DNA from: an uncultured Clostridia bacterium
Lineage (GTDB): Bacteria > Bacillota > Clostridia > Oscillospirales > Acutalibacteraceae
Length of the DNA: 64,000 nt
NCBI GenBank assembly: GCA_947589415.1
Contig: CANQBP010000007.1
Coordinates: 1 to 64,000, forward strand
Direction: 5' to 3'
Shown here: positions 7,119-64,000 of the stretch, piece by piece
How positions within the stretch are numbered: the stretch's first letter is position 1
Layout: every line of letters starts with the position of its first letter
Made by a program: the position numbers and the translations under genes
Notes under the pieces: generated by a model
The model's database searches: none
What the model was told of the DNA's origin: nothing
What the model saw: only the letters and a program-made list of their open reading frames with translations

Positions 7119-8534
7119 TTGTATGCGCCTTTGGCAAAACGGATAAAAAGACAAAGGATGTGGCGAAGAATGAATAATGATAATTTTTATGACAGGTTTG
7201 CGGAACTTTGCGATGAGTATCGGCGACATAACGGGTTTAACAGCGAGGACTATCAGACATACGGCGTAAAAAGAGGACTTAGAAATCCTGACGGTACAGG
7301 TGTTATGGCGGGGCTTACAAACATATGTAATGTGCATGGTTTCCTTATTGCAGACGGAGAAAGAATACCTGATGAGGGAAAGCTGACATACAGAGGTTAT
7401 GATGTAAGCAGCATAATTGATGCCTGCATAAAAGAAGACAGGTTCGGATTTGAGGAAACCGTGTGGCTGCTGCTTTTTGGGGATTTGCCCGATAAGACAC
7501 ATTTGAACCGTTTTAAGGAAATACTCGGTCACTACCGTGAGCTTCCCGAAAATTTTGCCGAGGACATGATATTGAAATTTCCCTCGGAAGATATAATGAA
7601 CAAACTGGCACATTCCGTGCTGGGGTTATATACAACAGACCCCAATCCCGACGATACATCACTTGAAAACATAATGCGCCAGTCGATACAGCTTATTGCC
7701 TCTTTGCCGACGATTATGACCTATGCATATCAGGTAAAGAGAAGAGCCTTTGATAAAAAAAGTATGTTTTTTCACCCCGTGGATCTTAAACTTTCCACGA
7801 GTGAGTCTATATTGCGTGCCCTGCGTTTTGATATGAAGTTCACTGATTCCGAGGCGAAGCTGCTCGATCTTTGTATGATACTTCATGCGGAGCATGGCGG
7901 GGGAAATAACTCTACCTTTACGGCAAGAGTGCTGTCATCATCGGGAACGGATACATATTCGGCAATCGCAGCGGCAATAGGTTCGCTTAAAGGACCTCGC
8001 CACGGCGGAGCAAATTTGAGAGTTCGTACCATGATGAATGAGCTTATGGAAAATGTGAAAGACTGGAAGGACGAGGAACAAATATATGACTTCCTTGCCT
8101 CGGTTGTACGAAAGGAAAAAGGGGACGGATCGGGACTTATATACGGTTTTGGTCACGCTATATATACACTTTCCGATGCCCGTGCCGTAATTCTTAGAAA
8201 AACAGCGGAAAAAATTGCAGCCGAAAAAAATATGACAGATGAATTTGAGCTTTACAAGACTGTCGAAAAGCTGACACCGAGAATTATGAAAGAAGTAAAG
8301 GGAAGCTCGAAAGTCATATGTGCTAATGTGGATTTTTATTCGGGCTTTGTATATGATATGCTCGGAATACCGAGTGATCTGTTCACACCGCTTTTTGCTG
8401 TATCAAGGATAGCGGGTTGGTGTGCCCATAGGATTGAAGAGGTAATATACGGCGGAAGAATAATTCGTCCGGCATACAGGTCAATGGTTCATAATAAGGA
8501 ATATGTTCCGATTTCCGAAAGAACTTATGATTGA
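7119..8534 (+). CDS. Citrate synthase; exact start uncertain (an internal ATG at MNNDNFYDRF is possible)
   Basis: GLTNICNVHGF, LTYRGYDVSSI, LHAEHGGGNNSTFTARV, LKGPRHGGAN motifs. Confidence 0.93.
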   Translation: MYAPLAKRIKRQRMWRRMNNDNFYDRFAELCDEYRRHNGFNSEDYQTYGVKRGLRNPDGTGVMAGLTNICNVHGFLIADGERIPDEGKLTYRGYDVSSIIDACIKEDRFGFEETVWLLLFGDLPDKTHLNRFKEILGHYRELPENFAEDMILKFPSEDIMNKLAHSVLGLYTTDPNPDDTSLENIMRQSIQLIASLPTIMTYAYQVKRRAFDKKSMFFHPVDLKLSTSESILRALRFDMKFTDSEAKLLDLCMILHAEHGGGNNSTFTARVLSSSGTDTYSAIAAAIGSLKGPRHGGANLRVRTMMNELMENVKDWKDEEQIYDFLASVVRKEKGDGSGLIYGFGHAIYTLSDARAVILRKTAEKIAAEKNMTDEFELYKTVEKLTPRIMKEVKGSSKVICANVDFYSGFVYDMLGIPSDLFTPLFAVSRIAGWCAHRIEEVIYGGRIIRPAYRSMVHNKEYVPISERTYD

Positions 8535-61965: not shown

Positions 61966-62151
61966 AACTATGATGTCAATATATTGAAACAGGGGATAAG
62001 TACATTGCTTTTCCCTGTTCTTTTTTTTATAAAGTGAGATGAATTCGGGAACGGATAGCGTATATATTTTTTGAACGGGAAAATATTTTGGAATAAAATG
62101 TGTGATTTGTACTTTTTCTATAAAAATATTTCATTTTTTTTACATTTTGAG

Positions 62152-62180
62152 TTGATTTTTACATAAATATATGTTAAAAT
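62152..62180 (+). promoter_or_regulatory. Putative promoter TTGATT-17-TAAAAT (copy 1)
   Basis: Conserved in both copies of the duplication. Confidence 0.6.
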
Positions 62181-62255
62181 ACATTTACAGTAAATTTTCA
62201 TGCTTTAGTCGGTGAAAGTGTTTAATCTGAATTTATTAGAAATGGGGAGTTTTAG

Positions 62256-62729
62256 ATGAAAAAAATCAAAAAGATCACGAAGAACGTCGCAAAAGTGTTT
62301 GGTATGTCAACAATCGCTGCGGTTACCTTGTTTTCTGCGGCAGTAACGGTTCAGGCTTATTCTGTGACTATTTTAGGTAAGTATTCGGTATCCCTAAATA
62401 CTGATCGCACATTTAACCCGGCAAGCCAGATGTATGGATATTTTGAAACGAAAAATAGTCAACATGGGCCAAGGGCAGGTACGCATTTCAATCCCGGTAG
62501 CCTTTCAGGGGGAGCATACACCGAACTCTATTATCGTACAACTACCTCCAGTGAAGTACTTGTACAACCAAAAGGTTATGTAAGCGGTGGACCTAACGAG
62601 TGGATTTGTTCCGAATGGGTAGAGGTTCCTGAAGATTATACAGCAGTATTAAGTCTTGCATTTATTGGCGAGAAGTTTAACAATAATGGTACTATTATAG
62701 CGAAAGAAGTAACATATGTAAATAGGTAA
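62256..62729 (+). CDS. Secreted protein of unknown function (copy 1)
   Basis: Signal peptide MKKIKKITKNVAKVFGMSTIAAVTLFSAAVTVQA; RBS ggggag; paralogue of next gene. Confidence 0.85.
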   Translation: MKKIKKITKNVAKVFGMSTIAAVTLFSAAVTVQAYSVTILGKYSVSLNTDRTFNPASQMYGYFETKNSQHGPRAGTHFNPGSLSGGAYTELYYRTTTSSEVLVQPKGYVSGGPNEWICSEWVEVPEDYTAVLSLAFIGEKFNNNGTIIAKEVTYVNR

Positions 62730-62861
62730 ATTCCAATTATCTGTAAATGTTTGTAACTTAAACGTTTCATTAGTGTAGATTAGTTTGATGATTTAATAAA
62801 ATGTGTGAAATTATTGATTTGGATTTTTTTATAAAAATATTTCATTTTTTTACATTTTGGG

Positions 62862-62890
62862 TTGATTTTTACATAGATATATGTTAAAAT
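62862..62890 (+). promoter_or_regulatory. Putative promoter TTGATT-17-TAAAAT (copy 2)
   Basis: Same layout as copy 1. Confidence 0.6.
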
Positions 62891-62965
62891 ATATTTACAG
62901 TAAAATTTTTCGCTTTGACTGGTGAAAGTGTTTTATCTGAATTTATTAGAAATGGGGAGTTTTAG

Positions 62966-63463
62966 ATGAAAAAAATCAAAAAGATCACGAAGAACGTCGC
63001 AAAAGTACTTGGTACGACAGCAATCGCTACGGTTACTCTGTTTTCTGCGGCAGTAACGGTTCAGGCTTACGATACGGTTACCTTAGGTAAGAAGTGGAAC
63101 GTAGCTCTTGATGTTGATCAAACATTACACGAGGCGAGTCAGATGTATGGATATTTTGAGACGCATAATGATCAACATAGGGCAAGGGCGGGTACGCATT
63201 TTAATCCAGGTAACCTTTCGGGTGCGGCATACACCGAACTCTATTATAATACAAGTTCCTCCAATGAAGAAAAAATTGTATCGGCAAATGGTTATGTAAC
63301 TGGTAGTCCTAACAGTTGGATTCGTGCAAAATGGGTAGAGGCTCCTGTTGGTTATACAGCAGCATCGAGTATTGCATTTGTTGGCGATAAGATCAACGAT
63401 TATGGTGTTTTGATAGTCAAAGAAGTAACATATGTAAACAGGTCAACCGTAACGAGGAAGTAA
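62966..63463 (+). CDS. Secreted protein of unknown function (copy 2)
   Basis: Near-identical signal peptide; shared core SQMYGYFET.N.QH..RAGTHFNPG.LSG.AYTELYY. Confidence 0.85.
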   Translation: MKKIKKITKNVAKVLGTTAIATVTLFSAAVTVQAYDTVTLGKKWNVALDVDQTLHEASQMYGYFETHNDQHRARAGTHFNPGNLSGAAYTELYYNTSSSNEEKIVSANGYVTGSPNSWIRAKWVEAPVGYTAASSIAFVGDKINDYGVLIVKEVTYVNRSTVTRK

Positions 63464-63687
63464 GTTTATTTTAATTTATTTGTAGATTAAATGGTATATT
63501 TTATGACAAATAAAGAGAATGTATTTATAAATATTTCTTACTTACTCATTTAAAAAAACGGTTATAATTTGGTTTTGTTTCAAAATATAAAAGCGATCTT
63601 TGTCTGCATTTACTTAAAATCATACATTTAAGGCAAAATACTTGTTTTCGTATAGATCAATTTTAGGATTTAATCTATCGGTGTTGG

Positions 63688-63727
63688 CGTCACCCCGCTG
63701 AGTCAACTGCATTCGGCGGGAGTGACG
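63688..63727. promoter_or_regulatory. Stem-loop between the secreted-protein genes and the downstream membrane gene, no T tract
   Basis: cgtcaccccgc / gcgggagtgacg, 11 bp with a single bulged A. Confidence 0.5.
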
Positions 63728-63763
63728 GCAAATATCGCTTTGTACTTATAAGGGGAGATTGAT

Positions 63764-64000
63764 GTGAATAAACTCCGGCTTTTTTTTCAATTCTTTAATA
63801 AAAACATATTAAAATCACTTGCATTATTTATCATATTTGTCGGGTCGGGAATTATCATTTCGGATATGGTGAGCCGTGTTGAGTTTAATATGCAGGCAGT
63901 CGGTTTTTTTCAAGGGGACGGTATTGAAAATTCGGATGTAGTGTCGGTTTATCGTACATTTGAATGGTGTTTCCTGCAGAAGCAGGAACCGACAGACCAA
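63764..64000 (+). CDS. N-terminus of a membrane protein (permease-like), truncated by the window end; GTG start
   Basis: RBS aagggga; VNKLRLFFQFFNKNILKSLALFIIFVGSGIIISDMVSRVEFNMQAVGFFQGDGIENSDVVSVYRTFEW..., open to base 64000; absent from the ORF track. Confidence 0.65.
   Translation, partial: MNKLRLFFQFFNKNILKSLALFIIFVGSGIIISDMVSRVEFNMQAVGFFQGDGIENSDVVSVYRTFEWCFLQKQEPTDQ

Follow-up and report, generated by a model that had tools for sequence, protein, structure and literature searches.

What is the role of two tandem genes for small secreted proteins that lie directly upstream of genes for membrane transport? The stretch of DNA that we analysed (the window: positions 1-64000 of contig C7, which is 83.8 kb long and runs on beyond it) comes from a gut Ruminococcus-like bacterium. 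A sequence-only reading of the window had described two secreted proteins of 157 and 165 aa, and had proposed that an FtsX-like permease and an ABC ATPase would follow beyond its edge. The coordinates and lengths of both genes, A and B, hold (Table 1), and on extending the contig the permease and ATPase were found twice: A and B are located directly upstream of two complete permease-permease-ATPase sets, followed by gatB. All open reading frames of the locus are conserved coding genes, with relatives in five other genomes. On balance, we lean modestly towards interpreting it as a bacteriocin-like module, in which A and B would be exported by Sec and the MacB-type transporter would serve as self-protection.

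Table 1. Features of the locus; positions beyond the window continue in the same numbering.
Feature	Position	Strand	Remarks
Promoter A, predicted	62152..62180	+	TTGATT, 17 nt, TAAAAT, extended -10 TG; consensus match and duplication before gene B
Gene A, secreted protein, 157 aa	62256..62729	+	Signal peptide 62256-62357, mature from 62358
Promoter B, predicted	62862..62890	+	Copy of promoter A; same TTGATT-17-TAAAAT, extended -10
Gene B, secreted protein, 165 aa	62966..63463	+	Signal peptide 62966-63067, mature from 63068
Stem-loop, gene B / permease 1a intercistronic	63679..63737	+	Folding energy versus shuffles; without U-tract
Permease 1a, 439 aa	63764-65083 (in window 63764..64000)	+	GTG start; MacB/FtsX-type, 4 TM
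Permease 2a, 289 aa	65106-65975		FtsX-type; beyond window
ATPase a, 227 aa	65992-66675		ABC ATPase; beyond window
Permease 1b, 466 aa as called	67266-68666		Likely start near 67290, probably ~457 aa
Permease 2b, 361 aa	68663-69748		Beyond window
ATPase b, 225 aa	69764-70441		Beyond window
gatB	70508-71923	-	After second transporter set

Genes A and B are tandem duplicates. As first noticed from the letters alone, their promoters, leaders and signal peptides are near-identical and their mature parts have diverged: the upstream regions share 91% identity over 154 aligned bases, with near-identity in the last ~60 bases 5' of the ATG and the first 14 codons, while protein identity is 66% over the full length and 60% for the mature portion, counted from a cleavage site placed by eye after VTVQA. 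The shared segments SQMYGYFET, RAGTHFNPG, AYTELYY and KEVTYVNR are exact in both. Nonsynonymous change affects 66 of 281 sites in the mature part versus 5 of 77 in the signal peptide (Fisher p=0.0006), and the corresponding difference in synonymous change is not significant (p=0.27); codon comparison gave a dS of 0.13 and dN of 0.07 for the signal peptide, and a dS of 0.31 and dN of 0.28 for the mature part. Because of this nonsynonymous enrichment in the mature part, the combination of a constrained export signal with a fast-changing product is a real pattern, to which gene conversion at the 5' end may contribute. The signal-peptide-like N-termini of A and B carry no lipobox, and the mature proteins (13.6-14.5 kDa) would be exported through Sec and have their effect outside the cell. 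The pI values of mature A and B, 5.6 and 6.5, respectively, lie in the acidic to neutral range; other family members are basic.

A and B represent an undescribed secreted protein family. No relatives were found in Pfam, NCBIfam, PDB sequences, plasmids (PLSDB) or phages (INPHARED), profile searches revealed no hydrolase or wall-binding domain, and DUF2712, which the earlier reading had named as a family to look for, gave no match to either protein up to E 1. A weak match of B to DUF4777, at 15.4 bits where the cut-off is 34.4, was put down to chance, and the idea of relatives on viral contigs, tried with a single protein, was rejected. The AlphaFold2 model of mature B is all-beta (pLDDT 86.5, pTM 0.82), and thus predicts with confidence an all-beta fold without a close solved relative: neither the PDB nor viral models yielded a close fold match, RhoGDI-like matches (E 5e-3, TM <0.3) being discarded, and A and B fall in no known structural family. 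Residues H37, R40, G52, Y60 and W89 (mature B numbering) are invariant in the family, which is present in six of the 64 genomes of the genus. Besides the source genome (G000), these are G021, G027 (three copies, two loci), G017, G063 and G064, metagenome-assembled genomes deposited as uncultured Clostridia bacterium isolates Lapin-013 and Lapin-005, uncultured Ruminococcus sp. RUG14529, 'bacterium' bin337 and Clostridia bacterium SUG1651. Such patchy presence fits an accessory trait. Outside the genus, the mature-part profile found none in 300 genomes of the taxonomic family, and the full-length profile gave no convincing match in 394 genomes of the order; apparent relatives in G181 and G182 are explained by the signal peptide (mature-part hhalign 0.1-0.2%).

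What then do the downstream genes encode? The GTG-started frame at 63764, seen earlier with its N-terminal TM segment, is a real and transport-related gene: permease 1a has predicted TM segments at 15-33, 313-331, 359-377 and 407-425, and carries a Pfam FtsX domain. In all four permeases one TM is followed by an ectodomain and then by three TMs, which is the MacB topology; permeases 1a and 2b score above the Pfam FtsX cut-off and the other two just below. TM1, a large ectodomain, TM2-4, the FtsX domain and an accompanying ATPase together place them in the MacB type, and each set would form a heteromeric MacB-type (type VII, mechanotransmission) ABC transporter of an ATPase and two unlike 4-TM permeases. 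The DUF1430 permease that had been suggested is not borne out; real lactococcin-972 (Lcn972) loci do match DUF1430, whereas here there are two separate MacB/FtsX-type subunits that match only FtsX, and no DUF1430 or bact_immun_7tm protein exists at the locus. Both ATPases belong to the LolD/MacB/L_ocin_972 group with LolD as top-scoring family, but reach none of the curated cut-offs of the families listed (for TIGR03608, L_ocin_972_ABC, 222.6 and 220.6 bits versus 254.85). The model of the permease 1 orthologue in G021 (L065; 57% identical, pLDDT 74.9) matches the fold of MacB 5gko at E 6.6e-12, has LolC/LolE among its top matches, and further matches LolCDE, S. pneumoniae MacB, YtrEF, BceAB, YknZ (including the ectodomain 5f9q) and FtsEX-EnvC. 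While the two ATPases of the source genome are 76% alike, the adjoining permeases are only 27-39% alike, and the same holds for the two loci of G027.

The space between gene B and permease 1a contains a stem-loop of -35.3 kcal/mol (z -4.8, reached by 0 of 200 shuffles). It was considered as a genomic repeat and is single copy in the genome, and Rfam candidates at the locus were chance matches to eukaryotic families only. Stem-loops of unrelated sequence occupy the same place in four of the six other loci (G021, G063, G064 and G017, with z -4.2, -5.9, -5.9 and -3.8), and are absent there from both G027 loci; a U-tract is missing after the window stem and present after that of G021. A hairpin kept in position and unrelated in sequence is suggestive of an attenuator or mRNA-stability element, through which the secreted protein would be produced at much higher levels than the transporter.

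Every family copy has the same split transporter of the MacB type in its locus. The order of small gene, permease 1, permease 2 and ATPase recurs in G021, G027, G063 (where the contig ends within the ATPase) and G064; G017 has the small gene and both permeases, in this order, at a contig end. In G021 the locus occupies the same site, flanked by ksgA and gatB, and consists of a single small gene with a single transporter set; this small gene (L065 1346-1420) is thrown out of frame by one base in an A8 run of the signal peptide, possibly an assembly error of this metagenome-assembled genome or a phase-variable site. On contig C2 of G027, two small genes are interspersed with four permease 1 genes, whereas permease 2 and the ATPase are each present once, and on contig C88 of the same genome a permease 1 remnant with three stop codons (7734-8003) lies upstream of the small gene. 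Among the 64 genus genomes, the small protein and close permease 2 relatives (E <1e-79; next best 9e-41) are confined to the same six and adjoin every time, a test that is partly circular because these very loci went into the permease profile. Divergence of the small protein follows that of permease 1 (Mantel r=0.75, p=0.001; 7 loci), and that of the ATPase weakly (r=0.34, p=0.11); like the co-occurrence, these correlations are drawn from a small sample and carry shared ancestry and query bias. Upstream of permease 1b (C7 67080-67300; L002 7080-7300), the promoter and leader resemble those of the G021 small gene, which would fit the loss of a small gene at this point, and tblastn found no remnant small gene before the second transporter set.

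Related transporters also exist without a small secreted gene, some of them beside a two-component system, and therefore the transporter family has other uses. Such permease/ATPase sets are found at L054 4091-6039, L055 3472-5423 and L057 1660-3596, where the neighbouring two-component pair looks, by its sequence, AgrC/LytTR-type. Elsewhere, unrelated small secreted proteins of ~150 aa adjoin split FtsX-type ABC genes (L062 4633-5100, L063 3725-4198 and L030 4497-4955), which suggests a broader theme of diverse secreted partners for such genes.

How might such a module work? We propose that A and B act most likely on competing close relatives, and that the transporter protects the producer at the outer face of its membrane, acting on the secreted protein or its target complex much as YknXYZ guards against SDP, with permease 1 as the likely specificity subunit. 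The kept gene order, the co-occurrence, the co-divergence of permease 1 and its extra copies in G027 argue for this, as do the conserved leader and signal peptide next to a changing mature part, and a locus that holds no gene for a modification enzyme, protease or adaptor. Against it stand profile and PDB fold searches that tie the proteins to no known bacteriocin by sequence or clearly by fold, the neutral to acidic mature A and B, unusual for bacteriocins, and the occurrence of related transporters without the small gene. If true, this would add a competition system for rumen and caecal Ruminococcus-like bacteria that current family-profile bacteriocin mining would miss.

At the gatB site of five other genomes (G005, G009, G020, G070 with two, and G071), solo permease 1-like proteins are encoded (L128 8277-9692, L129 811-2217, L130 574-2082, L131 362-1786 and L132 887-3723). 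They keep the ectodomain motifs YPxAVxxG and GKxxxPY, have a diverged C-terminal half and an acidic tail, and occur in genomes that lack both the small gene and a close permease 2; a role in orphan immunity or as receptors is conceivable, as is an unrelated use of the ectodomain. In a bolder form of the bacteriocin-like proposal, A and B would found a new class of all-beta bacteriocins exported by Sec, with immunity conferred by a modular heterodimer of the MacB type in which permease 1 is exchangeable; its copies would multiply in producers, and the solo proteins at the gatB site would serve as orphan immunity. We hold this as a tentative idea, more probably wrong than right.

Could A and B instead be extracytoplasmic partners of a MacB/FtsX-type complex in wall or envelope control, as EnvC or PcsB are for FtsEX, or sense or sequester foreign antimicrobials? 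The FtsX-type permease domain, FtsEX-EnvC and BceAB among the fold matches, and the co-divergence of small protein and permease agree with such a role. However, presence in six of 64 genomes and fast change of the mature part misfit a core process, and A and B have no hydrolase or wall-binding domain, so that we think this unlikely. Slightly less likely still is that the ABC transporter releases Sec-exported A and B, with a MacB-like complex as a dedicated secretion helper that detaches them from the membrane or drives them across the wall space, whatever their action thereafter. The predicted MacB/LolCDE-type fold of permease 1 would suit it, as would LolD being the best ATPase family, though under its cut-off, and MacB can act on substrates up to ~10 kDa (PMC5985334); yet there is neither lipobox nor adaptor gene, a cleavable Sec signal should suffice in a monoderm, and the extra permease 1 copies of G027 fit specificity or immunity better.

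Finally, a true lactococcin-972 locus that has diverged beyond profile detection is very improbable: size class, Sec signal, predicted beta-richness, gene order and the TIGR03608 scores of the ATPases (222 and 221 bits) are in its favour, and mediterrocin shares just 18% identity with Lcn972 (PMC12345188), but family membership fails because sequence, DUF1430 and the ATPase cut-off are all against it, besides a mature part about twice as long. Already the sequence-only reading saw no match between A/B and lactococcin 972, and we agree: neither PF09683 nor TIGR01653 matches them, PF09683 has no match in the whole source genome, hhalign gave a probability of 0.2% where positive controls reached 98% (halves of the Lcn972 set) and 99% (halves of the secreted family), and no Lcn972 entry (2LGN fold type) is among the best 50 PDB fold matches of the mature B model. 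The comparison set comprised real Lcn972-type loci from the same taxonomic order and plasmids; two genuine loci of that order, L083 1-4215 and L084 2152-5201, have PF09683 over its cut-off, and the L084 permease passes DUF1430.

In layout, Lcn972-type loci are nonetheless the closest known systems, encoding a Sec-exported beta-sandwich bacteriocin and, after it, a membrane protein and an ABC ATPase (PMC12345188, PMC11796350), of which the latter two have roles never verified by experiment (PMC11796350). Lcn972, streptococcin B and mediterrocin share with our locus a small Sec-exported beta-rich protein (beta-rich by prediction here), no modification enzymes, and, as next genes, one for a large membrane protein and one for a MacB/LolD-group ABC ATPase. 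They differ in a mature part of ~66-90 aa, versus 122-135 aa here without any sequence link, and in one DUF1430 7-TM protein in place of two separate 4-TM permeases. LolCDE is likewise heteromeric, with one ATPase and two unlike permeases of the same 4-TM type; however, the host here is a monoderm, no lipoprotein substrate was recognised, and the ATPases stay below the LolD cut-off. The closest mechanistic precedents are in our analysis YknXYZ of Bacillus and AS-48FGH of Enterococcus, MacB-type transporters that protect against Sec-exported SDP, probably from the outer face in the case of YknXYZ, and against AS-48 (PMC5985334, PMC4887032). In both, a MacB-type permease and ATPase are linked with a secreted peptide or protein, as here, but they use an adaptor (YknX/AS-48F), whereas our locus has none, has two unlike permeases, and places the transporter next to the secreted-protein gene. 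What makes the locus useful is that an undescribed secreted family comes together with a MacB-type pump amenable to structural work. Through the natural duplications and the additional copies of permease 1, both cognate and non-cognate combinations are at hand for asking whether such pumps confer immunity.
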